Part shown: piece after piece, positions 1-10,367 of the stretch
Numbering within the stretch: position 1 is the first letter of the stretch
Layout of the letters: each line of letters opens with the position of its first letter
Assembly (NCBI GenBank): GCA_021794335.1
Contig: JAJYQZ010000095.1
Span: forward strand, 1 to 10,367
Direction: 5' to 3'
DNA from: a bacterium
GTDB taxonomy: Bacteria; SZUA-79; Acidulodesulfobacterales; Acidulodesulfobacteraceae
Length of the DNA stretch: 10,367 nt
Translations under genes and position numbers: made by a program
Notes under the pieces: model-generated
The model's input: the letters and a program-made list of their open reading frames with translations, nothing else
Databases searched by the model: none
What the model was told of the DNA's origin: nothing

Positions 1-43
1 CCGATTTCAGGTCAAGAAAAAATGCAAATTTTACGCGTTTTGG

Positions 44-192
44 CATATACTAAGTCCATATTAACTGGCAAAAACCTGCAATGTCATTCCCGCGTAGGCG
101 GGAATCCATATACTAAGTCTATATTAACTGGCAAAAACCTGCAATGTCATTCCCGCGTAGGCGGGAATCCATATACTAAGTCTATATTAATT
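44..192. repeat. 63-bp tandem repeat, about 2.4 copies, each full unit ending in a palindrome
   Basis: The units begin at 44, 107 and 170, an exact 63-bp period. The first two units are complete and differ by a single C/T at about position 57/120. The third stops matching at about 192. Each full unit carries the 20-bp palindrome ATTCCCGCGTAGGCGGGAAT (86-105 and 149-168) near its 3' end. Because 63 is a multiple of three, an open frame runs through the array and repeats the peptide CHSRVGGNP, a typical artefact of this palindrome and not a protein. The array lies downstream of the minus-strand ATPase gene ending at 246. No function is assigned. A structured 3' region or a substrate for slippage are possibilities. 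Confidence 0.9.
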
Positions 193-245
193 AGCGCAGG
201 ATTAAAGATATAACTTCACCCGCTATTTTAATATTCATATTATGA

Positions 246-1004
246 TTATATCATACCTTTTGATTCGATAACGGCGGAGGATATTATTATCCCGTCTTTA
301 ACGGTTATAAGTCTTTTTCCGTAATTGGCTATGTTTTTATCGTGCGATACAAGAATAATCGTAGCCCCTCTTTCTTCGTTAATTTTTTTAAAAAATCTCA
401 TCACATCCGCTCCCCTCACGGAATCAAGGTTGCCCGTCGGTTCATCGGCCATAATAATAGGGGCGTTGTTTACTACCGCTCTCGCTATAGCAACCCTTTG
501 CTGTTCCCCTCCGGATATCTGATTAGGAAATTTGTTTTCTTTATCCGCAAGGTCAACGAGCTTTAACGCGTCCATTGCCATCTCCGTCGCTTCCTTTGAA
601 TGCATGCCCGAATAATACAGGGGCAATTCGACATTTTCGACGATGGAAAGCCGCTGGATAAGATTGAAACCCTGAAAAACAAACCCTATTTTTTTGTTCC
701 TTATCTCGGCAAGTTCATCGGAAGTTAAATTAGAAACATCTCTGCCCTCAAGAAAATATTTTCCGGCGGTAGGTCTGTCAAGGCATCCCAGTATGTTCAT
801 AAGAGTGGATTTTCCCGAGCCTGATGCCCCCATTATGGAAACAAATTCTCCGTTTTCTACAATAAGATTTATACCTTTTAGCACCTCATAAGAAATATCC
901 CCGATTTTATAAATCATGCCGATATTTTCAAGCCTTATTAGAGGGGGATTGCCGCCCGGAATATCGTAGCTCTTTACCTGTTCCTTTATTCCTCCGGTAT
1001 TCAT
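246..1004 (-). CDS. ABC transporter ATP-binding protein, MacB/LolD type
   Basis: A 252-residue cytoplasmic ATPase subunit that would power an inner-membrane permease. The full ABC set is visible: Walker A GASGSGKST at residues 59-67, Q-loop Q111, signature SGGEQ at 164-168, Walker B IIMADE at 183-188 with catalytic E188, D-loop NLDS at 192-195 and switch His221. The text around the Walker A and Q-loop (ILGCLDRPTAG, FVFQGFNLI) is typical of the MacB/LolD/FtsE group of export or membrane-remodelling transporters. The length fits a stand-alone ATPase; in E. coli MacB this domain is fused to the permease, here it is not. It starts 27 bp after the MacA-like adaptor gene, so the two are almost certainly co-transcribed. 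The ribosome binding site is weak (GAGGG about 13 nt upstream), so the exact start is less certain than the frame. The partner permease is not visible within the 245 bp downstream and may lie further out. Confidence 0.93.
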   Translation of the reverse strand: MNTGGIKEQVKSYDIPGGNPPLIRLENIGMIYKIGDISYEVLKGINLIVENGEFVSIMGASGSGKSTLMNILGCLDRPTAGKYFLEGRDVSNLTSDELAEIRNKKIGFVFQGFNLIQRLSIVENVELPLYYSGMHSKEATEMAMDALKLVDLADKENKFPNQISGGEQQRVAIARAVVNNAPIIMADEPTGNLDSVRGADVMRFFKKINEERGATIILVSHDKNIANYGKRLITVKDGIIISSAVIESKGMI

Positions 1005-1031
1005 AAATTTCTTTTAACCCTCATATATCTG

Positions 1032-2222
1032 TTAGAAGAAGAATCTTCTTCCCGGCGCCCCGGCAGCTTGATAATTTGATTTTAAGCCCGTTATTATTTC
1101 CGTTCCCGCTTTAATATCTTTGGAAATAATCTCGGTGTCGCTGTCGTTGTTGATGCCGAGATTTACTATTACCGGTTCCGGCATTTTGTTTTTCAATACC
1201 CATACGACGCCCTCGCCGACCTTCAGTTTTTTGGATAAGTTGTCTAAAATCTCTTTGTTTTCGTCCGGCGGAATGAATCTTAAGGCGGCATTGGGCACGC
1301 CGAGAACGCCTTTTTTTTCCGAAACATAAATTTTGGGAATTGCCGTCATTCCCGGAAGAATTAACCCGTCCGGATTTTTAAAGTATATCGTAACATTATA
1401 GCTTACCACTCCCGAAACCGTCGTCGGGTTTATCCTTATGTTGTGAACATATCCCCAAAATGTCTTATCGGGATAGGCATATACGGTAAACGATGTCCTG
1501 TCCCCCTTTTTTATGCCGCCGAGATCCGCTTCATTTGTCGTGGTATATATTTCCATTTCCTTAAGATCCTCTCCTATAGTAAAAAGGCTCGGGGTCTGGA
1601 AGGTTGAAGCGACGGTCTGCCCGACTACGACGCTTACATTTATAATAACGCCGTTTACGGGGGAGTATATCTTTGTGTATGAAAGATTGGTTTCATCCTG
1701 AGCAAGCTGGGATTTAACGGCATTAGCGGCATCCTCTAAGAATTTAAGCTGGGCTTTGTCCTGAAGATATATGCTGTACGCATTTTGTTCCGTCGCGTGG
1801 GCTATGAGATTTTCTTCCCATAATTTTTTATTCCTGATGTATGTAAGTTTGTCGTATGCCAGAAGGGCTTTTTGCTTTAAAACATTTGCTCTTGCGGATT
1901 CAAGATTTGCTTTATCCTGGTCAACTTTTTGAATAAAAGGAGTAGGGTCTATTTCGGCAAGAAGCTGTCCCTTTTTTACGACGGAGTTATACCAGACATA
2001 AAGTTTTGAAAATCTTCCCGATACCTGAGCCCCCACATTTATCGTATTGATTGGATTTGCGGTTCCCGATGTCGTAACATATTTTTGTATCGTCATGGGC
2101 TTGACGGCGTAAAGCTCGTAAACCGGTTTCTTTGAGCCTGATTTTATTATAAAATAAGAAATAGCCGATATTATAATCAGAATGACTGCGATTATTAAAA
2201 TAATTTTTTTATTTTTCCCCAT
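1032..2222 (-). CDS. MacA-like periplasmic adaptor (membrane fusion protein, HlyD family)
   Basis: A 396-residue adaptor that bridges an inner-membrane ABC exporter and a TolC-type channel. Residues 6-26 form an N-terminal membrane anchor after a basic MGKNKK start, leaving the rest in the periplasm. Two half-lipoyl segments are visible at about 61-97 (VGAQVSGRF, VVKKGQLLAEIDP) and 180-217 (YSPVNGVIINVSVVVGQTV). They flank a charged, Ala/Leu/Lys-rich stretch at about 98-180 that should form the alpha-helical hairpin. A beta-barrel (about 218-300) and a membrane-proximal domain (301-396) follow, ending in GAPGRRFFF. The text is closest to MacA rather than to AcrA-type RND adaptors, which agrees with the ABC ATPase 27 bp downstream. 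The start is supported by an AAAGGA Shine-Dalgarno sequence six nt upstream. A MITE-like element separates it from the upstream tolC-type gene. The substrate is unknown; macrolide export is only one known role for this family. Confidence 0.92.
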   Translation of the reverse strand: MGKNKKIILIIAVILIIISAISYFIIKSGSKKPVYELYAVKPMTIQKYVTTSGTANPINTINVGAQVSGRFSKLYVWYNSVVKKGQLLAEIDPTPFIQKVDQDKANLESARANVLKQKALLAYDKLTYIRNKKLWEENLIAHATEQNAYSIYLQDKAQLKFLEDAANAVKSQLAQDETNLSYTKIYSPVNGVIINVSVVVGQTVASTFQTPSLFTIGEDLKEMEIYTTTNEADLGGIKKGDRTSFTVYAYPDKTFWGYVHNIRINPTTVSGVVSYNVTIYFKNPDGLILPGMTAIPKIYVSEKKGVLGVPNAALRFIPPDENKEILDNLSKKLKVGEGVVWVLKNKMPEPVIVNLGINNDSDTEIISKDIKAGTEIITGLKSNYQAAGAPGRRFFF

Positions 2223-2228
2223 TTTTAG

Positions 2229-2234
2229 TCCTTT
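2229..2234 (-). promoter_or_regulatory. Ribosome binding site of the MacA-like gene
   Basis: On the minus strand AAAGGA lies six nt before the ATG at 2222. This is the clearest Shine-Dalgarno sequence in the efflux operon and fixes the adaptor start. Confidence 0.6.
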
Positions 2235-2257
2235 GTACCTTTATAAATGCCATTTAT

Positions 2258-2471
2258 CTTTAATTTTGCAATAGAAGTTTAATTTTCTGGATTATCGCTT
2301 CGCTCTCGGCTTTCAGCCTCGTGAAGTTTCAAAGAAACTTTCCCGCTGAAGCGGGTTGGGACACCCGTTGGGTTAAAGTTTAAATTCCCTTATCGTCATT
2401 CCCGCGAAAGCGGGAATCCAGTATTTACATATAAAAGAAACATCTAAATATTTTCTATTGCAAAATTAAAG
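2258..2471. mobile_element. MITE-like element, copy A (214 bp, core inverted, 5-bp target duplication TTTAT)
   Basis: The ends are the perfect 19-bp inverted repeat CTTTAATTTTGCAATAGAA (2258-2276) and its complement (2453-2471). TTTAT flanks both sides (2253-2257 and 2472-2476), as expected for a target duplication. It has no coding capacity. It contains a short arm on the left, a long AT-rich arm on the right, and the palindrome ATTCCC-N8-GGGAAT at 2398-2417. Compared with the other copies it carries about 49 extra bp (about 2293-2341), and its core (about 2363-2394) runs in the opposite direction relative to its arms. The right target duplication overlaps the last base of the TolC-like gene's stop codon. 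It sits inside the tolC-macA-type operon and would be transcribed. Confidence 0.88.
2321..2362 (+). repeat. 42-nt double-hairpin module, first copy
   Basis: Two adjacent hairpins, AAGTTT-CAAAG-AAACTT-type and CCCGC-TGAA-GCGGG, lie within MITE copy A. The same 42-nt module occurs in reverse orientation at 10067-10108. Both stems are identical in the two copies, while the differences fall in or beside the loops plus one position in the 3' tail. Confidence 0.7.
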
Positions 2472-2475
2472 TTTA

Positions 2476-3924
2476 TTAAATGTTTTTTCGTTTTATATAA
2501 TGTTCCAACATCAAACCCAGGTCGGAATAAAGCTTGGCTTTTTGGTAAAAATAGGTAAGCTTGGCGTTTATGTAGCTTGTTATGCCGGATATATACTGGG
2601 CGTTTGCCGTTACAAGCTGAACCATAGAGCCCACCCCGACCTCATAACTTTTTAGCGCAAGCTGATATGCGAGTTTTGAGGCATCCGCCGATGATTTGAG
2701 CGCCTTTACCGTTGAATATTGATTTAAAATAGCGTAATAATCGCCGGAGACGCCGTAAACAAGATTATCTTTAGTAAGCCGCCTGTTCCATATATTACTG
2801 TTTAATATAGCCTTGGAATATTCGATTTTATTTTGAGTTAAAAACCCGTTAAAAATCGGTATAGAAATGCCGATGCCGACGGAGTAATTTCTGTTTAACG
2901 GAAAGGCGGAGTTTTGCCCCGTATATGAGAAATCGGCATTAAGGGTGGGGAAATATCCGCTTGTCGCGGCGCCCACGGATGCTATAGAGGATTTAACCGC
3001 GTATATGCTCTGTTTTAATTGCGGATTGAATTTCGTTGCCGTTTTTATAAGTTTATCCAGCGCCCGGCGAAACGGCTTGAACTTAAGCGTATTAACAAAC
3101 AAGTATCGTTTTGACGGTGAAAGGCCGATTGAATTAAGCAGCGCCAGTCTTGCAATTTTTACAATGTATATCGAGTTTATATAGGTTGCCCTTGCCGTTT
3201 CCATCGTTGCCTTAGCTGTTTCAACATCCAAAAGATTTCCGGTTCCGACCTTGTAAAATGCCGCAGCGGCTTTATACTGAGTTTCATCGTTTTTTAAATT
3301 TTCCTGAGCGGCTTTCATTAATTCCTTGTCCGCAAAATATGTGGCAAAATTAAGGATTACATTGTAAAGGTCATTATTTACCGTCATGCCGTAACCTGCC
3401 TTAGCCCCCTTCATATTATAATATGCGCTAAGATAATTGTAATGGCGGGAGCCGAATGAGTATAACATATAAGTTGCGTTAACGCTTCCCGAGTAATTGT
3501 TTAAAGAATAGTTTATACTCCCTTCGCTAACATGGTATATCTGTCCGTTAATGGCAGCTATGCCTTGGTTATTGACATCCATAACCGAATTCTTAGAAAA
3601 CCCGGCGGTTCCTGAAATTTGCGGATAATATAAAGAAAGAGATTGATTTTTGGTATATATGGAGGATATATAAGAATATTTGGACGCCATTATTCCGGGA
3701 TAATGTTTAAGCGCAATTTCTAAAGCTGTTTTTAAATTTATTATAGCAGGAAGGGTTTTATCAATTTTAGGTGCGTCGTTATACGCGTTAAATGTTAATA
3801 AATCAGCGTTTGTTTTGTTTGATTTTTTTGCCGCATAAGAAGAATGGTTTGAAATTAAAATTAAAGAAAACAGTATAAAAAATAAAAATATTAAGGATTT
3901 AATAAAAGATTTAAAATTTGGCAT
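2476..3924 (-). CDS. TolC-family outer-membrane efflux channel
   Basis: A 482-residue outer-membrane factor forming the exit duct of a tripartite exporter. An N-terminal signal peptide is clear: basic start, hydrophobic run at about 9-25, likely cleavage near SYA-A at residue 31. Two OEP repeats follow. The paired motifs FYKVGTGNLLDVETAKA (223-239) and SYEVGVGSMVQLVTANAQY (426-444) are the equivalent helix regions of repeats 1 and 2. YSVGIGISIPIFNGF (347-361) matches the beta-strand segment that precedes the second helical hairpin. No cysteine is present, so the protein is not an acylated OprM-type lipoprotein. It is the first gene of the minus-strand export operon, 253 bp ahead of the MacA-like adaptor, with a MITE-like element in the gap. 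No good Shine-Dalgarno sequence is seen before the ATG, but the signal peptide fits this start. TolC-family assignment is firm; the specific substrate is not known. Confidence 0.93.
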   Translation of the reverse strand: MPNFKSFIKSLIFLFFILFSLILISNHSSYAAKKSNKTNADLLTFNAYNDAPKIDKTLPAIINLKTALEIALKHYPGIMASKYSYISSIYTKNQSLSLYYPQISGTAGFSKNSVMDVNNQGIAAINGQIYHVSEGSINYSLNNYSGSVNATYMLYSFGSRHYNYLSAYYNMKGAKAGYGMTVNNDLYNVILNFATYFADKELMKAAQENLKNDETQYKAAAAFYKVGTGNLLDVETAKATMETARATYINSIYIVKIARLALLNSIGLSPSKRYLFVNTLKFKPFRRALDKLIKTATKFNPQLKQSIYAVKSSIASVGAATSGYFPTLNADFSYTGQNSAFPLNRNYSVGIGISIPIFNGFLTQNKIEYSKAILNSNIWNRRLTKDNLVYGVSGDYYAILNQYSTVKALKSSADASKLAYQLALKSYEVGVGSMVQLVTANAQYISGITSYINAKLTYFYQKAKLYSDLGLMLEHYIKRKNI

Positions 3925-3966
3925 GATTTTAAATTTTTAATAGCATTAAAAAACATTTTATATTAT

Positions 3967-3994
3967 ATTATAACCTTATAATTTTAATTGTAAA
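3967..3994 (-). promoter_or_regulatory. Candidate sigma70-type promoter for the efflux operon
   Basis: On the minus strand TTTACA (3989-3994) and a perfect TATAAT (3967-3972) are separated by 16 bp, about 43 bp before the TolC-like start codon. The surrounding DNA is very AT-rich, so chance matches are likely. It lies just downstream, in the direction of transcription, of MITE copy B. Confidence 0.4.
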
Positions 3995-4006
3995 TTTTAT
4001 AGTTAA

Positions 4007-4171
4007 CTTTAATTTTGCAATAGAAAATATTTAAATGTTCCTATTATATGTAAATTCTGGATTCCCGCTTTCGCGGGAATGACACCTTTTGGGTTAAAAC
4101 CTCAATCTCTGCATTGTCATTCCCGCGAAAGCGGGAATCCAGAAAATTAAATTTCTATTGCAAAATTAAAG
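4007..4171. mobile_element. MITE-like element, copy B (165 bp, target duplication GTTAA)
   Basis: The 19-bp terminal inverted repeat is at 4007-4025 and 4153-4171. GTTAA directly flanks both ends (4002-4006 and 4172-4176). The interior holds two perfect palindromes of the ATTCCC-N8-GGGAAT type (4061-4080 and 4119-4138) which are also reverse complements of each other, so the element can fold into one long stem or two small hairpins. The long arm is on the left and the short arm on the right, the same orientation as copy C. The core has diverged from the other copies. The element lies in the divergent region between the TolC-like gene and rimO; that 338-bp region holds no gene. Confidence 0.9.
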
Positions 4172-4208
4172 GTTAAAATATTATTACGATACTTTAGATA
4201 TGATTGTA

Positions 4209-4224
4209 ATGACTTTATAGTCAT
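4209..4224. promoter_or_regulatory. Short perfect palindrome upstream of rimO, possible operator
   Basis: ATGACT-TTAT-AGTCAT is a perfect 6-bp inverted repeat with a 4-bp centre, 38 bp before the rimO start. A TTGTCA (4225-4230) directly follows and could be a -35 box, but no well-spaced -10 box is evident. No known operator is recognised. Confidence 0.25.
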
Positions 4225-4262
4225 TTGTCAAGTTATTTTATTACGCCTTTTGATATTATATT

Positions 4263-5579
4263 ATGGCCCTTCGTTTTAATCTTATCAGTTTAGGATGCCC
4301 AAAAAATCAGGTGGATTCAGAGGTAATGTTTACCCGTCTCAAAACCTCCGGCGTTGAATTTACATATAATCTGGACGATTGCGATGTTTGCGTGATTAAT
4401 ACCTGCGGGTTTATAGAGGCGGCAAGAAAAGAGTCCATAGATGCCGTTATGGAAGTAATTCGAAAAAAGGAAGAGGGGCGTCCGAAATATATCGTCGTTA
4501 CGGGCTGCTTAGTCAATAACAACTTGAAAAGCTTAAAAGACGAATTACCCGAGGTGGACCTGTTTTTGTCAACATTCGACGAAGATAAAATAGTCAGCGA
4601 ACTATGCATCGTAACGAATAAAAATTTTAAGTCTTGCGAAAACGAAGGCAGGGAGCATTTTAATCTGAAGAGAACCGCATATATCAAAATTTCCGAAGGA
4701 TGCGATAGAACCTGTTCTTTTTGTACTATTCCGTCCATCAGGGGGAGCTATAAATCGAGGTCCGTGGATGAAATAAAACGGGAGGCGGCCGGTCTGGCGC
4801 AAGCCGGGGTTAAGGAGTTAATAGTAATATCGCAGGACACATCTTACTACGGTTTAGATTTAAATATCAAAAACGGTTTATATAAACTTTTAAAGGAACT
4901 CGTGAAGATTAAAGGCATAGATTGGATAAGGCTTTTATATCTTTACCCGTCAAAGAGATTATTTAATGCCGACTTAATAAGCCTCATGAAAAACGAAGAA
5001 AAGATATTGAAGTATATCGATATGCCCGTTCAACACATAAGCGGCAATGTTTTAAAACTTATGAAGCGGGGGGAAACAAAAAAAGATATTATAGAATTAA
5101 TTCAAAAATTAAAAAATAATATTCGGGATGTTGCCTTAAGGACATCTCTTATAACGGGTTTCCCCGGCGAAACCGATAAGGATTTCGAGGAACTTTTAGG
5201 GTTTATTAAAGATGTTAAATTCGATAATCTGGGGGTTTTTAAATATTCGGACGAAAGGGGAGCGGACTCTTTTAAATATCGGGGAAAGATTAGAGCCGGA
5301 ATTAGAAACGAAAGGTATAAAATATTAATGGAAACCCAGAGAAACCTTTTGCCGGAGATTTTGTCCAAGCACATCGGCAGGACTTATAATGCTATCGTTG
5401 ACGGGATCAGCAACAGGACAGTCAAGGCAAGAACCGGCTTTCAATCCCCCGATATCGACGGCTGCACATATTTATACCTTGAAGACATAAAAGATGAAAG
5501 TCTTCAAGGTTATGACGGACTTGTGCCCGTTAATGTCTTGAAATTCAAAGACTATGATTTATATGCAAATTGTAAATAA
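4263..5579 (+). CDS. rimO: Ribosomal protein S12 methylthiotransferase RimO
   Basis: A 438-residue radical-SAM enzyme that adds a methylthio group to a conserved aspartate of ribosomal protein S12 in the cytoplasm. The N-terminal UPF0004 domain carries the three auxiliary-cluster cysteines C12 (LGCPKNQVDSE), C48 (INTCGFI) and C82 (VTGCL). The radical-SAM CxxxCxxC motif is C147-C151-C154 (GCDRTCSFC). YIDMPVQHIS (251-260) and SLITGFPGETDKDFEEL (295-311) are further family motifs. The C-terminal part from about 371 fits the TRAM domain that binds the substrate. LGCPKNQVDSE near the start separates RimO from MiaB and MtaB. Length is normal. The Shine-Dalgarno sequence is weak, but the N-terminal motif lies so close to the ATG that the start is credible. 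It is a housekeeping gene, unrelated in function to either neighbour, and is followed 9 bp after its stop by MITE copy C. Confidence 0.96.
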   Translation: MALRFNLISLGCPKNQVDSEVMFTRLKTSGVEFTYNLDDCDVCVINTCGFIEAARKESIDAVMEVIRKKEEGRPKYIVVTGCLVNNNLKSLKDELPEVDLFLSTFDEDKIVSELCIVTNKNFKSCENEGREHFNLKRTAYIKISEGCDRTCSFCTIPSIRGSYKSRSVDEIKREAAGLAQAGVKELIVISQDTSYYGLDLNIKNGLYKLLKELVKIKGIDWIRLLYLYPSKRLFNADLISLMKNEEKILKYIDMPVQHISGNVLKLMKRGETKKDIIELIQKLKNNIRDVALRTSLITGFPGETDKDFEELLGFIKDVKFDNLGVFKYSDERGADSFKYRGKIRAGIRNERYKILMETQRNLLPEILSKHIGRTYNAIVDGISNRTVKARTGFQSPDIDGCTYLYLEDIKDESLQGYDGLVPVNVLKFKDYDLYANCK

Positions 5580-5588
5580 AAAAGTCGG

Positions 5589-5755
5589 CTTTAATTTTGC
5601 AATAGAAAATATTTAGATGTTTCTTTTATATGTAAATACTGGATTCCCGCTGAAGCGGGTTGGGACACCCGTTGGGTTAAAGTTTAAATTTCCTTATCGT
5701 CCCAACCCGCTTCAGCGGGAATCCAGAAAATTAAACTTCTATTGCAAAATTAAAG
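5589..5755. mobile_element. MITE-like element, copy C (167 bp, long inner inverted repeat)
   Basis: The 19-bp terminal inverted repeat is at 5589-5607 and 5737-5755. GTCGG lies on the left (5584-5588) and TCGG directly follows on the right (5756-5759); one G appears lost or shared at the right junction, so this target duplication is slightly imperfect. Inside, 5639-5666 and 5699-5726 form a perfect 28-bp inverted repeat around a 32-bp core. The long arm is on the left. Its reverse complement aligns end to end with copy D. It lies between rimO and hdrC, starting 9 bp after the rimO stop codon. Confidence 0.87.
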
Positions 5756-5767
5756 TCGGAAATTTGC

Positions 5768-5796
5768 TTGACTAAAAGTTCAAAATAAACTAAAAT
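5768..5796 (+). promoter_or_regulatory. Likely sigma70-type promoter of the hdrCBA-mvhD operon
   Basis: TTGACT (5768-5773) and TAAAAT (5791-5796) are separated by exactly 17 bp, 63 bp before the hdrC start. It begins 13 bp past the right end of MITE copy C, so the element lies directly upstream of it. Confidence 0.55.
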
Positions 5797-5859
5797 AAAA
5801 AGACTGCACTTATAATTTTATTTAAATTTAAAAAATAAAAATTTTTTAGGATATTTAAT

Positions 5860-6408
5860 ATGAAAACGGTTATAAACGAACAGAACAGAAGAAACTTTGT
5901 TTCACAGGTGGAGGCGATGCTCCACGATAAGCTTTCCAAATGCTATCAGTGCGGAAAATGTTCCGCGGGCTGTCCCGTCAACTTCGAGATGGATTATACC
6001 CCGAACCAGATTATAAAAATGACGGAACTCGGCATGGAGGAAACCGTTTTAAATTCCAAGACTATCTGGCTCTGCGTTTCCTGTAATACCTGCTCTACCC
6101 GCTGTCCAAAGGGTTTTGAAGTTACCGGTATTATGGATGTTTTAAGAGAAATAGCCGAAAAAAGAGGTATAACGGCAAAAGCCGAAAAAGAGGTTCAGAT
6201 GTTTCACGAGGTCTTTTTGGATAATGTTAAATCCAACGGGAGAATATTTGAACTCGAGCTTATAGGAAAGTATAAATTTAAAACGAGGCATTTATTCAGG
6301 GACATATTTTTAGCCCCCAAAATGCTTGAAAAAGGCAAACTTAAAATGCATGGGGAAAAAATTTCCGATTTAAATCAAATAGCTAAAATTTTTAAAGACT
6401 TTGAGTAA
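5860..6408 (+). CDS. hdrC: Heterodisulfide reductase-type subunit C, iron-sulfur electron carrier
   Basis: A 182-residue soluble protein that passes electrons from HdrA to HdrB. Two [4Fe-4S] ferredoxin motifs are complete: C28-C31-C34-C38 (CYQCGKCSAGCP) and C72-C75-C78-C82 (CVSCNTCSTRCP). Their spacing and the text between them match HdrC. The C-terminal hundred residues are helical and charged without further cysteines, and the length is usual for the family. AGGA eight nt before the ATG supports the start. It is the first gene of the operon, 33 bp ahead of hdrB. Related GlpC/LctE/DsrK-type proteins fuse this module to a CCG domain; here the two are separate genes, as in true HdrB/HdrC pairs. 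In a bacterium the final acceptor need not be CoM-S-S-CoB, so the name reflects homology only. Confidence 0.94.
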   Translation: MKTVINEQNRRNFVSQVEAMLHDKLSKCYQCGKCSAGCPVNFEMDYTPNQIIKMTELGMEETVLNSKTIWLCVSCNTCSTRCPKGFEVTGIMDVLREIAEKRGITAKAEKEVQMFHEVFLDNVKSNGRIFELELIGKYKFKTRHLFRDIFLAPKMLEKGKLKMHGEKISDLNQIAKIFKDFE

Positions 6409-6441
6409 ATAAATATTAAATATCGGGGAGAAATTATATAT

Positions 6442-7320
6442 ATGAAATTAGCATATTATCCGGGATGCTCGCTTAAGGGGACATCGTTTGAATATGAAGT
6501 ATCGCTGTTAAAAATACTAGAGGCGTTAAATATAGAAGTTAAAGAAATACCAGATTGGAATTGCTGCGGGGCTTCGGCGGCTCACAGCATAAACCACGAT
6601 CTTTCAATAGCGCTTCCGGCAAGAAACCTTGCAATAGCGGAAGGGGAGGGATATGAATCCGTTCTCGCTCCGTGCGCCGCGTGTTCTAACAGGCTTAAAA
6701 CAGCCCATCACGAGCTTAAATCTGACGATATTCTTAAAAAGAAAATAACCGACTCCATAGAAATGTCTTACAAGGCAGATATGGAAATAAATAATATGCT
6801 TGAATTTCTGATTAAGATTGCAGGCAAAGACAAGATAAAATCTATGGTCAAAAAGCCTTTGAAAGGCTTGAAGGTTGCCTCTTATTACGGCTGCCTTTTA
6901 GTCAGGCCCCCCAAGGTTATGCAGTTCGACGACCCCGAAAACCCGGTGTCTATGGATGAATTAGTCGGTCTTACGGGGGCGGAGACTGTCGATTATTCTT
7001 ATAAAACCGAGTGCTGCGGCGCCATCAACTCGCTTTCTAAACCGGATGTCGTAATGGCTTTAACCGGCAATGTCTTGTACGATATTAAAAAACACGGAGC
7101 AGACCTTGTGGTTGTCGCCTGCCCCTTGTGCCATTCTAATTTAGATGTCAGGCAAAGGGAAATCGAGAGAAAATACTCGGAAAAAATAGGACTTCCAGTA
7201 CTTTTTATAACCGAACTTCTGGGGCTTTCTTTCGGCATAGATCCGAAAGACCTTGCAATAGAAGGACATATGGTTGCGGCGGACAGGGTTTTAAGAAAGA
7301 TAGAAGGATTAAAAAATTAA
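6442..7320 (+). CDS. hdrB: Heterodisulfide reductase-type subunit B with two CCG domains
   Basis: A 292-residue catalytic-type subunit. Two CCG domains are intact, each with the five-cysteine pattern that holds a non-cubane [4Fe-4S] cluster in methanogen HdrB: C9, C41-C42, C78 and C81, then C151, C191-C192, C227 and C230. Key segments are WNCCGASAAHS, APCAACSNRL, YYGCLLVRPP, TECCGAINS and ACPLCHSNLD. Because all ten cysteines are kept, a disulfide-reducing or comparable two-electron site is likely, although the physiological substrate in this organism is unknown. GGGGAG 11 nt before the ATG supports the start. It follows hdrC by 33 bp. The stop codon's last base is also the first base of the AGATT target duplication of MITE copy D, so the insertion hit the exact end of the gene without altering the protein. 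Confidence 0.95.
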   Translation: MKLAYYPGCSLKGTSFEYEVSLLKILEALNIEVKEIPDWNCCGASAAHSINHDLSIALPARNLAIAEGEGYESVLAPCAACSNRLKTAHHELKSDDILKKKITDSIEMSYKADMEINNMLEFLIKIAGKDKIKSMVKKPLKGLKVASYYGCLLVRPPKVMQFDDPENPVSMDELVGLTGAETVDYSYKTECCGAINSLSKPDVVMALTGNVLYDIKKHGADLVVVACPLCHSNLDVRQREIERKYSEKIGLPVLFITELLGLSFGIDPKDLAIEGHMVAADRVLRKIEGLKN

Positions 7321-7324
7321 GATT

Positions 7325-7489
7325 CTTTAATTTTGCAATAGAAATTTATTTTCTGGATTCTCGCTGAAGCGGGTGGGGACGATAATGGAATTTAAACTTT
7401 AACCCAGCGGGTGTCATTCCCGCGAAAGCGGGAATCCAGTATTTACATATAAAAGAAACATCTAAATATTTTCTATTGCAAAATTAAAG
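7325..7489. mobile_element. MITE-like element, copy D (165 bp, target duplication AGATT) inside the hdr operon
   Basis: The 19-bp terminal inverted repeat is at 7325-7343 and 7471-7489. AGATT flanks both sides perfectly (7320-7324 and 7490-7494). Inner arms 7353-7380 and 7413-7439 are imperfect inverted repeats; the right one contains the palindrome at 7416-7435. The short arm is on the left and the long arm on the right; the whole aligns with the reverse complement of copy C. It lies between hdrB and hdrA, where the genes are in the same direction, so the operon transcript must cross it. Confidence 0.9.
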
Positions 7490-7522
7490 AGATTATTATT
7501 TATTTGAGATTATTATTTATTT
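7489..7522 (+). repeat. Perfect 17-bp tandem duplication before hdrA
   Basis: Positions 7489-7505 and 7506-7522 are identical AT-rich 17-mers. The first includes the last base of MITE copy D and its right target duplication, which suggests the duplication arose after the element inserted. It lies 32 bp before the hdrA start and outside its ribosome binding site. Confidence 0.75.
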
Positions 7523-7554
7523 AAGTAAATGTATATGAAATAGAGGTATATATT

Positions 7555-9537
7555 ATGGCAAGAATAGGAGTTTTTGTTTGTTGGTGCGGTTCGAACATTG
7601 CGGGAACCGTCGATGTCGCTAAGGTTACCGAGGAGGCAAAGAAGGTTCCGGGCGTCGTAACCGCCGTTGACTATAAATACATGTGTTCCGACCCGGGGCA
7701 AAACAGCTTAAGAAACATGATTAAAGAACAAAAATTAACAGGGGTTGTTCTTGCGGCATGTTCTCCGCATATGCATGAAAACACATTTAGAAAAGCTGCC
7801 GTTAAAGAGGGTTTAAATCCGTATTTTGTCGAGATTGCCAATATAAGGGAGCAGGTTTCATGGGTTCACGAGGATAAAGAAAGGGCTACGCAAAAAGCGG
7901 TAGATTTAATGAAAATGATGGTGGAAAAGGTAAAAAGGGACAGACCCATCGAAGATGTCAGGGTTCCTTTAAACAAAAAAGCGCTCGTTATCGGCGGAGG
8001 AATATCCGGTATTCAAGCGGCGCTGGATATCGCAAACGGCGGAGTAGAGGTTTTGCTTGTGGAAAAAGAGCCGTCTATCGGCGGGAGAATGATTCAGCTC
8101 GACGAAACATTTCCCACATTGGACTGCTCAAGCTGTATAATGACGCCAAAAATGGTTGAGGTAAACCAGCATCCAAACATAAAGCTATATACTTATTCCG
8201 AGGTCGAGGATGTTTCGGGATATATCGGAAATTTTAAAATAAAAATCAGGAAAAAGGCAAGAAGCGTTGTCGAGCATGACTGTACCGGCTGCGGCAACTG
8301 CTGGAATGCCTGTCCGATGCATAAAAATGTCAAAAGCGAATTTAATGTGAATTTGTCCGAAAGGACTGCGATATATGTTCCTTTTCCTCAAGCCGTTCCG
8401 CTTATTCCCGTATTGGACAGGTCGGTCTGCCTCCACTTTAAAAAAGGCGGAAAATGCGTCAAATGCTATGAGGCATGCGGACCAAAGTGCATAGATTTTG
8501 ATATAAAGGACGAGATTATCGAAGAAACGGTCGGCGCAATCGTCGCCTCGACCGGCTACGACCTTATGGATAATTCCCTTTACGGCGAATACGGCTACGG
8601 CAAATATAAGGATGTCGTATCAGGCTTACAGTTTGAACGGCTTTTATCGGCATCCGGTCCGACCGAGGGCGTAATTAAAAGACCCTCCGACGGAACGACC
8701 CCGCAGACAATCGTGTTTATTCAATGCGTAGGTTCAAGAGACCCCGAAAAAGGCGTTCCTTATTGCTCGAAGGTTTGCTGTATGTACACCGCAAAGCATG
8801 CAAAATTATTTGCGCATAAGGTTCACGGTTCACAGAGTTATGTTTTTTACATAGACATAAGGGCGACAAGCAAGGGATACGAAGAGTTTGTCAGGGGAAC
8901 AATGGAGCAGGACGGGGCGGTATATCTAAGGGGCAGGGTCTCGAAGATTTACGAAGATAACGGCAAACTTATCGTTAAGGGCGCCGATACGCTTTCGGGA
9001 AATCAGGTTGAGATTGCCGCAGATATGGTGGTTCTTGCAACCGGCGTCATACCCAAAAAGGGTTCCGACAAGACGGCGCAAATGCTCGGCATATCTTATG
9101 ATAAATACGGATTTTTTACGGAGTCTCATCCGAAGCTCCGTCCAGCGGAATCCTCTACGGCGGGGATTTATCTTGCGGGCATGGCGCAGGGTCCGAGGGA
9201 TATTCCCGAGTCTGTTGTTTCCGGTTCCGCCGCCGCATCTAAAATACTGGGGCTGTTTTCAAAGAACGAATACGAGGTCGAAGGAACAATTGCCGGCGTC
9301 AATGAAGCGACTTGCGTCGCCTGCTTTTACTGCCAAAGGGTTTGCGGCTATAGCGCGATTAGCAGAAAGGAGATTAAGGATAGAAGCGGCAAGGTTATAA
9401 AAGTCGTCGCCAGCGTTAATCCCGGGCTTTGTACCGGCTGCGGCGCGTGCGTCAACGCTTGTTTTTCAAAGTCGATAGATGTCAAAGGATTTATGGACGA
9501 CCAGATATATGCGGAGATTAGGTCTTTAGCGATTTAA
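7555..9537 (+). CDS. hdrA: Heterodisulfide reductase-type subunit A, FAD- and Fe-S-binding bifurcating flavoprotein
   Basis: A 660-residue flavoprotein that in the Hdr-Mvh system takes electron pairs from MvhD and splits them between HdrC/HdrB and a ferredoxin. An N-terminal domain has cysteines C9, C11, C44 and C69 (FVCWCGSN, AACSPHMHE). The FAD-binding Rossmann motif GGGISG is at 147-152, followed by DCSSCIMTPKM (C191, C194). An inserted ferredoxin region has C243-C246-C249-C253 and C292, C301, C304, C308, C312. The HdrA motif CVGSRD...YCSKVCC gives C391, C404, C408 and C409. Two C-terminal [4Fe-4S] motifs follow: C587-C590-C593-C597 and C626-C629-C632-C636. Length and order match full-size HdrA rather than the shorter QmoA. 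No in-frame TGA suggests selenocysteine. AGAGG eight nt before the ATG supports the start. It is 234 bp from hdrB because of MITE copy D, and 43 bp from mvhD. Confidence 0.96.
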   Translation: MARIGVFVCWCGSNIAGTVDVAKVTEEAKKVPGVVTAVDYKYMCSDPGQNSLRNMIKEQKLTGVVLAACSPHMHENTFRKAAVKEGLNPYFVEIANIREQVSWVHEDKERATQKAVDLMKMMVEKVKRDRPIEDVRVPLNKKALVIGGGISGIQAALDIANGGVEVLLVEKEPSIGGRMIQLDETFPTLDCSSCIMTPKMVEVNQHPNIKLYTYSEVEDVSGYIGNFKIKIRKKARSVVEHDCTGCGNCWNACPMHKNVKSEFNVNLSERTAIYVPFPQAVPLIPVLDRSVCLHFKKGGKCVKCYEACGPKCIDFDIKDEIIEETVGAIVASTGYDLMDNSLYGEYGYGKYKDVVSGLQFERLLSASGPTEGVIKRPSDGTTPQTIVFIQCVGSRDPEKGVPYCSKVCCMYTAKHAKLFAHKVHGSQSYVFYIDIRATSKGYEEFVRGTMEQDGAVYLRGRVSKIYEDNGKLIVKGADTLSGNQVEIAADMVVLATGVIPKKGSDKTAQMLGISYDKYGFFTESHPKLRPAESSTAGIYLAGMAQGPRDIPESVVSGSAAASKILGLFSKNEYEVEGTIAGVNEATCVACFYCQRVCGYSAISRKEIKDRSGKVIKVVASVNPGLCTGCGACVNACFSKSIDVKGFMDDQIYAEIRSLAI

Positions 9538-9580
9538 ATATTCCTGATAATATTAAAATAAAAAAGGAGCCTGTTTTTAG

Positions 9581-10039
9581 ATGGAAGATAAAAAAGAAAA
9601 GCCCGTGAAATCCGGCGGAAACAATGTGAGCGACCCCAGAATTATCGCATTTGTTTGCAACTGGTGTACCTACAGCGGAGCGGACCTTGCGGGAACAAGC
9701 AGAATGAAATATTCGGACAATGTAAGAGTGATAAAACTCCCCTGTTCGGGAAGAATAGACCCCTTGTTCATCGTCGAGGCGTTTAAGAAAGGGGCAAAGG
9801 GCGTATTGGTTTCGGGCTGTCATCCCGGAGATTGCCATTATATCAGCGGAAATTATCATTCAAGAAGAAAATACGCGGCTTTCAGAGATTTACTGGGTTT
9901 TTTGGGCGTAGATTTAAACAGGATTGAATTTTCATGGATTAGCGCCTCGGAGGGTAATAAATGGGTTTCCGTAATTAATGAATTTACCGATAAGATTAAG
10001 TCGCTGAATGATAATTCAAGCGATATATTTAAAAAATAA
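9581..10039 (+). CDS. mvhD: MvhD-type [2Fe-2S] electron-transfer subunit
   Basis: A 152-residue protein that couples an electron donor (hydrogenase, formate dehydrogenase or another oxidoreductase) to HdrA. The cysteines C26, C29 (FVCNWCTYSGADLAG), C55 (LPCSGRID), C80 and C85 (GCHPGDCHY) are the MvhD/FlpD family set for one [2Fe-2S] cluster. Cysteine is coded at all of these sites, so this is not a selenocysteine variant. It has about 18 extra polar residues at the N terminus before the conserved part. AAGGAG 11 nt before the ATG supports the full-length start. It lies 43 bp after hdrA, clearly co-transcribed. No hydrogenase or dehydrogenase large subunit is in the window, so the donor is unknown. 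It is followed by a 276-bp gap with repeats and a possible structured leader. Confidence 0.94.
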   Translation: MEDKKEKPVKSGGNNVSDPRIIAFVCNWCTYSGADLAGTSRMKYSDNVRVIKLPCSGRIDPLFIVEAFKKGAKGVLVSGCHPGDCHYISGNYHSRRKYAAFRDLLGFLGVDLNRIEFSWISASEGNKWVSVINEFTDKIKSLNDNSSDIFKK

Positions 10040-10066
10040 TTAAATAAACCAAATAATAATTCATAT

Positions 10067-10108
10067 GTCCCGACCCGCTACGGCGGGAAAGTTTAGGATA
10101 AACTTCAC
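10067..10108 (-). repeat. 42-nt double-hairpin module, second copy
   Basis: The reverse complement of this stretch aligns without gaps to 2321-2362. Both stems, CCCGC/GCGGG and AAGTTT/AAACTT, are unchanged, whereas the loops differ (CGTA against TGAA, ATCCT against CAAAG). Here the module stands alone, outside any MITE-like element. Confidence 0.7.
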
Positions 10109-10233
10109 ATATCGGCGGCACGCGTTGAAAGGCGCACGCCGCCTTTGCGTGCAGGAGATGTCGTCAGACACATATTTTCGCCCGCACGATTGTTTTTGCA
10201 TGCCTGCAACGCGGGCGAAGATGGCGAAGCGTT
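10109..10233. other. GC-rich structured intergenic stretch after mvhD
   Basis: Unusually GC-rich for this window's intergenic DNA. GGCGGC (10114-10119) can pair with GCCGCC (10138-10143), while GCACGC (10134-10139) can instead pair with GCGTGC (10147-10152); the two pairings overlap and exclude each other. A 9-bp inverted repeat TTCGCCCGC (10177-10185) / GCGGGCGAA (10211-10219) follows. I recognise no riboswitch, RNA family or gene. It may be a leader of the gene at 10316 or an unrelated repeat copy. Confidence 0.35.
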
Positions 10234-10277
10234 AATCTATACAACTGTCATTCCCGCGTAGGCGGGAATCTATACAA
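10234..10277. repeat. Palindrome flanked by an 11-bp direct repeat
   Basis: AATCTATACAA occurs at 10234-10244 and again at 10267-10277, a 33-bp period, with the 20-bp palindrome ATTCCCGCGTAGGCGGGAAT (10250-10269) at the end of the unit. The arrangement mirrors the 63-bp array at the left edge, with the same palindrome but a different and shorter spacer. Confidence 0.7.
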
Positions 10278-10315
10278 TAATATAACTGATTTAAGTTTAA
10301 TTTTTAGGACATTAT

Positions 10316-10367
10316 ATGGCAAATATAGACGAAAAGCTGCAAAAGATAGCAAAAGACCTTTTGGAAA
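10316..10367 (+). CDS. Start of a downstream gene, cut by the window end
   Basis: An ATG with AGGA six nt upstream opens a frame that stays open to the window end, giving MANIDEKLQKIAKDLLE. It is in the same direction as mvhD and probably belongs to the same cluster. The short helical N terminus resembles the beginnings of FrhB/FdhB-type iron-sulfur flavoproteins often found next to hdr genes, but 17 residues are too few to name it. Confidence 0.6.
   Translation, partial: MANIDEKLQKIAKDLLE

Follow-up and report, generated by a model that had tools for sequence, protein, structure and literature searches.

The question raised by this locus is what moves the four short elements that a preliminary description had noticed within 5.2 kb of a 10,367-nt stretch of DNA from a bacterium of the Acidulodesulfobacteraceae (contig JAJYQZ010000095.1, positions 1 to 10,367; the whole stretch is called the window below). 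They had been read as copies of one repeat resembling a miniature inverted-repeat transposable element (MITE), of a family not recognized by its ends. That family is IS1380: the window elements are very probably non-autonomous MITEs on which an IS1380-family transposase acts in trans, recognizing the 19-bp end CTTTAATTTTGCAATAGAA, designated class Q. Across related genomes, the same kind of core is found with five end classes, each of which has its counterpart among five IS1380 lineages.

All four elements lie as inverted end pairs exactly where they had been placed, and the shared 19-bp end is exact in 8/8 cases. At up to three mismatches, this end has 8 matches in the window, compared with a mean of 0.05 and a maximum of 1 in 200 shuffles. 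The elements, which contain arms resembling repetitive extragenic palindromic (REP) sequences, and their target duplications are as follows:

2258..2471, minus strand: copy 1, 214 bp; core inverted relative to its arms, with an extension of ~50 nt
2253-2257 and 2472-2476: target duplication TTTAT of copy 1; the right one overlaps the last base of the tolC-like stop codon
4007..4171, plus strand: copy 2, 165 bp; REP-like arms identical, of the GTCATTCCCGCGAAAGCGGGAATCCAG type
4002-4006 and 4172-4176: target duplication GTTAA of copy 2
5589..5755, plus strand: copy 3, 167 bp; REP-like arms identical, of the GTCCCAACCCGCTTCAGCGGGAATCCAG type
5585-5588 and 5756-5759: target duplication TCGG of copy 3; alternatively GTCGG minus one base
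7325..7489, minus strand: copy 4, 165 bp; two unlike REP-like arms
7320-7324 and 7490-7494: target duplication AGATT of copy 4; the left one begins at the last base of the hdrB-like stop codon
2258..2276, plus strand: 19-bp terminal inverted repeat (class Q), left end of copy 1
2453-2471, 4007-4025, 4153-4171, 5589-5607, 5737-5755, 7325-7343, 7471-7489: the seven other 19-bp ends

Read from the long side, each element consists of an end, the A arm, a REP-like arm, a loop of ~30-38 nt, a second REP-like arm, the B arm and the other end. The two REP-like arms are identical in copies 2 and 3, each copy having its own type, and unlike in copies 1 and 4; the whole core of copy 1 is inverted, opposite to copies 3 and 4. 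The matched 5-bp flanks claimed for each copy are exact at copies 1, 2 and 4 (TTTAT/TTTAT, GTTAA/GTTAA and AGATT/AGATT). Copy 3, already flagged as incomplete by the notation '(G)TCGG', has GTCGG on its left and TCGGA on its right, so that either TCGG is a 4-bp duplication or a 5-bp GTCGG was followed by loss of the element's last G. The elements are indeed non-coding: no open reading frame (ORF) of at least 60 aa lies within any of them, and none of at least 25 aa within copy 1, to which this finer cut-off was applied. With 165-214 bp, below the ~500-bp limit for such elements, inverted ends, target duplications, empty alleles (below), multiple copies and no transposase gene, they are MITEs that need a transposase in trans, as had been proposed. 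A scan against Rfam gave no family at the gathering score, and a distant-mode search of a plasmid collection with copy 1 and its flanks gave no match. Without the family result presented below, a window element alone would be an ordinary MITE.

To follow these elements in relatives, a collection of 30 genomes, all of the same order, was used; the window's own genome lies outside this set. Judged by RimO (97% identical), the closest relative is genome G010, in which aligned blocks of more than 500 bp are 87.7-97.2% identical to the window. Its syntenic stretch lacks all four elements. The sites of copies 2, 3 and 4 are clean there, with a single GTTAA, AAAGTCGGAAATTT and a single AGATT, respectively. 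The copy 1 site is diverged in G010 and clean, with a single TTTAT, in G013 (RimO 89%), where the copy 3 site is also empty, with one base different, and the sites of copies 2 and 4 are unreadable. The targets are thus single and uninterrupted in relatives, and the transposition proposed from the flanks is borne out. That the ends are perfect, and that a relative whose DNA is 88-97% identical has empty sites, indicates that the elements moved recently in the lineage of the window.

Matched flanks are also common across the relatives, the other check that had been suggested. In a sample of 63 elements, which includes the window's four and in which the duplication did not serve as a tie-breaker, 34 have an exact 5-bp duplication (flank permutation: mean 1.2, maximum 6) and a further 11 match at a one-base offset (permuted mean 0.5, maximum 5). 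The duplications measure 4-6 bp, mostly 5; those of IS1380 are given as 4-5 bp in the passages covered of PMC12116815.

A transposase gene bounded by the same ends, which the preliminary description had proposed to look for, is present in a relative's genome. At locus L013, two inward-facing ends (19/19 and 18/19) enclose a 1,566-bp element with GTTAA flanks and an IS1380 transposase inside. Against NF033539, the transposase scores 191.5 bits over a 387-aa open frame, above the 180-bit cut-off, and 161.7 bits, below it, for the 329-aa ATG-started ORF. Since its N-terminal part is out of frame in the assembly, this copy may be inactive. The same ends and the GTTAA duplication on an IS1380 element of the same order identify the window elements as IS1380-type MITEs. 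A comparison of 16 subterminal stretches from eight insertion sequence (IS) copies with all MITE arms gave none above the maximum of 30 shuffles each. A MITE formed by shortening of the IS (type I) was rejected, there being no subterminal sequence in common; since only the 19-bp ends are common to both, the elements are type II MITEs.

Among the 30 genomes, NF033539 has matches in 13, above the cut-off in 7; the 19-bp end at no more than one mismatch occurs in 10, and its degenerate form CYTTAATYYTGCAWTAGAR in 22, with none for the backward control. Sixteen stretches of genome contigs hold the exact 19-mer; three (L008, L010, L013) belong to the family, and the other 13 were taken as chance matches, having no second inward end at up to three mismatches. 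Two viral contigs with the 19-mer were set aside on the same ground.

In the predicted mechanism, an IS1380-family transposase would bind the class Q 19-bp end and move the MITE in trans, and insertion would duplicate mostly five AT-rich target bases. The arms and the REP-hairpin core are the MITE's own parts, the ends alone being common to the autonomous element. An IS1380-type transposase is presumably the mover in the window's organism as well. Several observations weigh against the IS1380 assignment: 16 of the 63 elements have neither an exact 5-bp match, nor a match at a one-base offset, nor a 4-bp match; the sole class Q IS found, L013, is the one with its N-terminal part out of frame; it lies in another genome of the order, the window's own being outside the collection; and G010 is without any IS1380 match despite dozens of element copies.

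The extent of the family was assessed from the B arm, present at up to three mismatches in 19/30 genomes (the pattern read backwards, as a control, gave 5 matches over the 30). Reading outward from this anchor in the loci retrieved, with a pattern looser than three mismatches and with the target duplication as tie-breaker, yielded 85 sites, 77 with two ends and 8 without a second end. Both ends belong to one class in 62 of the 77 (Q 13, R 29, S 4, T 5, U 11), 12 have an unassigned end and 3 combine two classes. A whole-element DNA search, matching in 27/30 genomes, was set aside as a measure of extent because the REP part alone gives a match, so that the figure overstates the family. Nine full or near-full IS1380 loci were examined (L013, L152 and L155-L161); the ninth, L157 in G019, has another inverted repeat and was left out of the classes, which are as follows:

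Class Q: end CYTTAATYYTGCAWTAGAA and near forms; IS1380 at L013
Class R: end CCCAAATCCCGATTTAGAA and near forms; IS1380 at L152 and L155
Class S: end CCMAAAATTGCCGATAGAR and near forms; IS1380 at L156, L158 and L159
Class T: end CCTTAAMTCACCGTTAGAR and near forms; IS1380 at L161, frame interrupted
Class U: end CTTTAATCCT(GCG/TCC)ATAGAA and near forms; IS1380 at L160

Two transposases of one class (R, S) are 76-98% identical, those of different classes 25-55%. Target duplications are clear at L013, L156, L160 and L161 and offset by one base at L152; there is no clear duplication at L155 and L159, and L158 lies at a contig end. Behind the five kinds of end, the same kind of core is found. In 230 pairs of elements of different class from the same genome, the outer 14 bases agree at only 0.47-0.48 and the A arm at 0.58, whereas the REP arms and the B arm agree at 0.90-0.94, as within a class (0.88-0.93); the B-arm value is inflated, this arm being the search anchor.

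The relative G010 was also searched by ends only, for classes Q, R and S and with unequal patterns (one mismatch for R and S, none for Q). From 129 end sites, 48 pairs facing inward at a distance of up to 400 bp were obtained, a set overlapping with the 44 B-arm matches of this genome. Pairs of 163-167 bp make up 35 of the 48 (Q 3/3, R 16/22, S 15/20, mixed 1/3). Among the 22 pairs that were read, 18 are same-class and MITE-like, 3 mixed and 1 an IS remnant. By a strict pattern, the 18 same-class elements hold two REP units in 14 cases, one in 2 and none in 2; a duplication of at least 4 bp is present in 16 of the 18 and in 0/3 mixed pairs. The remnant (L316, G010 C1:696220-696616) is a class R IS1380 element reduced to 397 bp of end pieces; the two pieces are 90-91% identical to L155. 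G010 contains no NF033539 match and no candidate transposase, so its copies seem orphaned, unless a transposase lies in a missing part. Against the 48 pairs in the 1.9 Mb of G010, or ~1 per 40 kb, the 4 in 5.2 kb noted as a high density in the window form a local cluster. Within G010's 19-kb syntenic stretch there are likewise three elements, at sites other than the window's; one, between macB-like and macA-like genes and absent from the window, has the same kind of core with class S ends. In G003, many class S ends lie ~90-130 bp from contig ends (e.g., C5, C23, C25, C36, C52), as if a multi-copy class S element broke the assembly.

How one kind of core came to stand behind five ends is less certain. 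Our tentative proposal, to which we give a little less than an even chance, is that a single REP-hairpin core has repeatedly changed its engine: five frames of ends and arms, each matched to a different IS1380 lineage, would have recombined with cores, their two sides being rematched by template switching, and the core would outlive any one transposase. The ends and the A arm would have co-diverged with the transposases, and cores would have been exchanged between end frames, to some extent, by recombination between dispersed copies, which would leave mixed-end elements, mostly without duplications. Five elements have clearly mixed ends: L164 (R/Q), L174 (T/Q), and L235, L246 and L309 (R/S). 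Only one of these (L164) has a duplication, compared with 62/80 same-class elements (Fisher p 0.015), the latter being the sum of 46/62 B-arm-anchored elements, in which duplications acted as tie-breaker, and 16/18 from the ends-only search. L148 (Q/U, duplication TTATA), one of the 3 two-class elements of the B-arm set, was left out since no more than two bases separate its odd end from Q; counting it as mixed gives 2/6 (p 0.035). Although the numbers are small, the usual lack of duplications at mixed ends suggests recombination between dispersed copies.

The rematching of sides is suggested by the hairpin arms. REP arms are identical in 18/41 elements of the relatives, against 10.1 when permuted within class and genome (p 0.001); mean arm identity is 0.928 against 0.910 (p 0.017), and that of the two ends 0.923 against 0.910 (p 0.002). 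Shared descent, which the permutation leaves in, can raise all three statistics. Thirteen of the 62 elements were dropped from the arm-matching test since both arms did not parse, among them window copies 1 and 4, whose arms differ. In yeast, template switching between inverted repeats is reported to homogenize arms and invert the spacer (PMC8604942, in the passages covered), much like the matched arms of copies 2 and 3 and the inverted spacer of copy 1; unlike in yeast, the process would here be read from end products in MITEs. The two arms may thus have been made to match by template switching in the hairpin, and with such rematching the core could persist after a given transposase is lost.

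Pure co-divergence is a serious possibility, though we hold it to be somewhat less likely than not: an old MITE lineage would have split with the five IS1380 lineages without any core exchange, the ends and A arm changing fast, each following its transposase, and the core and B arm slowly. In 52 of the 62 elements, those of 155-172 bp, the nearest neighbor by A arm is of the same class at a rate of 0.96 and the nearest by core at a rate of 0.85, against 0.26-0.27 with shuffled labels, and such class-structured cores weigh against free exchange. Core subtypes that cross classes count in the other direction. Elements of the ~214-bp form are found in class Q (window copy 1), in R (L242, 91% over 68 nt), in S (L298, L305, L308) and with R/S ends (L309); those with a single REP unit, of 105-108 bp, belong to Q (L032), to R (L312), to S (L307) and to R/S (L246). 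The loop of the class T element L272 is 0.90 identical to those of six class Q elements, and the mixed-end elements likewise speak against a history without exchange. Much of the family pattern is accounted for by co-divergence; what remains would follow from cores passing between end frames.

It is unlikely, though worth weighing, that the core is an independent REP-type repeat inserted several times into MITEs of 71-83 bp of each class, in which case a shared core needs no exchange. Core-less elements of this size exist: L026 (71 bp, Q, duplication TCTAA), L276 (80 bp, Q, TTAAA) and L313 (83 bp, S, TTCAT). REP-like palindromes also occur alone in the window, and class Q ends can enclose another core. 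In genome G005, loci L273-L286 have such ends around a different palindromic core (GGTGTCAGA...TCTGACACC) in elements of 80-208 bp; this genome has 73 class Q ends (degenerate form), no IS1380 match and no B arm. On the other side, the core-less elements may be deletions across the hairpin, and the B arm beside the core is also common to the classes (0.94, a value inflated by its use as search anchor).

It seems quite improbable that a function in RNA or regulation (mRNA processing or intergenic attenuation) maintains the elements, instead of their being simple mobile DNA. All four copies (plus strand for copies 4, 3 and 2, minus for copy 1) form RNA folds far more stable than those of shuffles, at -61.7, -88.2, -82.0 and -73.2 kcal/mol (z -8.9, -14.6, -14.9 and -7.7), but inverted ends fold well anyway. 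Three of the four elements lie within ~10 nt of a stop codon, and transcripts with Correia elements are cleaved by RNase III, according to the passages covered of PMC10969869; against this, these genes are present in a close relative that lacks the elements, and no Rfam family was matched. Intrinsic terminators were rejected: there are 3 terminator-like matches, one of them inside copy 1, against 5.0 in shuffles. Every copy has a weakly predicted promoter-like site, TTTACA-17-AATATT (9/12 matches), that points out of its A arm; the region as a whole has 27 promoter-like sites, a weak excess over the expected 17.5 (standard deviation 4.4):

2424-2452, 4026-4054, 5608-5636, 7442-7470: promoter-like sites of copies 1 to 4

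Spread by recombination or slippage, with flanks matched by chance, is extremely improbable: palindromic repeats can rearrange, and the scarcity of duplications among mixed-end elements suggests that some recombination takes place, but clean empty sites and 34/63 exact duplications against 1.2 permuted contradict it.

Among described systems, the window elements are like those of the IS1380 family (e.g., ISEcp1/ISEc9) in having the ends of the order's IS1380 elements and duplications of 4-6 bp; they differ in lacking a transposase gene and have only the 19-bp ends in common. The closest precedent for the family is the coral CMITEs of piggyBac type, of ~100 bp with TTAA duplications; as covered in PMC2872659, their interior is more conserved between families than their terminal repeats, its origin is unexplained, and a partner was found for one family. 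IS1380 transposases are themselves called distant relatives of piggyBac in the passages covered of PMC10140906. A constant interior behind variable ends is thus already published, at least in the coral passages covered, and the bacterial, IS1380-matched family is a variant on it, unlike the CMITEs in its host, 5-bp duplications, palindromic core, partner IS for each of five classes and mixed-end elements.

By description only, and in the part of PMC10969869 covered, the Chunjie MITE of Geobacter uraniireducens (178-235 bp) is alike in size, insertion in an operon, many copies, conserved ends and duplications. The same source lists Correia elements, ERIC and QMITE as intergenic MITEs with long-hairpin transcripts, like those of the window; these too are likened by description only, and their ends differ. 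IS1380 occurs 0 times in the text of that 2024 review of prokaryotic MITEs; literature holding both IS1380 and MITE described no such family in the passages covered, and none of the matches listed for the core sequence letters concerns such repeats. On MITE mobilization or exchange, only the coral precedent was met, in a search with subscription papers mostly outside it.

The core arms, of the type ATTCCCGCnnnnGCGGGAAT, resemble REP palindromes and bacterial interspersed mosaic elements (BIMEs), and similar palindromes stand alone in the window; unlike in REP/BIMEs, the REP-like arms here lie between IS1380 ends with target duplications. Neisseria dRS3 is likewise similar to core arms of this type. 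MITEs usually depend on a single transposase, whose loss leaves them stranded. If true, one core behind five transposase-matched ends, with some shuffling of cores among them, would be a natural test system for MITEs that change or outlive their transposase. The coral study left its pattern of constant interior and variable ends unexplained in the passages covered (PMC2872659); for the present family, each end class already has a partner transposase. The four recent insertions of the window come with both occupied and empty alleles, and one insertion is located in an hdr gene cluster.

All four elements are intergenic: copies 1 to 4 lie between the macA-like and tolC-like, tolC-like and rimO, rimO and hdrC-like, and hdrB-like and hdrA-like genes, respectively. 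Gene names other than rimO and the adaptor are best profile matches scoring below the curated cut-offs:

1032..2222, minus strand: MacA-like/RND adaptor gene, adjoining copy 1
2476..3924, minus strand: TolC-like outer-membrane protein gene, between copies 1 and 2; best match, below cut-off
4263..5579, plus strand: rimO, between copies 2 and 3; TIGR01125 above cut-off
5860..6408, plus strand: HdrC-like gene, downstream of copy 3; best match, below cut-off
6442..7320, plus strand: HdrB-like gene, upstream of copy 4; best match, below cut-off
7555..9537, plus strand: HdrA-like gene, downstream of copy 4; best match, below cut-off

The hdrC-, hdrB- and hdrA-like genes stand in a row with an HdrA2-tail/VhuD-like gene (5860-10039). 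The stretches in which three of the four insertions come within ~10 nt of a stop codon are 2472-2478, 5577-5588 and 7318-7324. Head-to-tail 63-bp repeats with a REP-like palindrome (TGTCATTCCCGCGTAGGCGGGAATCC) occupy positions 44-200, outside any MITE. Solitary REP-like palindromes are found at 10066-10108, resembling copy 1's internal extension (81% complementary), and at 10246-10270. Immediately to the right of copy 4 (7490-7524) is a 17-bp tandem duplication (AGATTATTATTTATTTG), which is single in G010.

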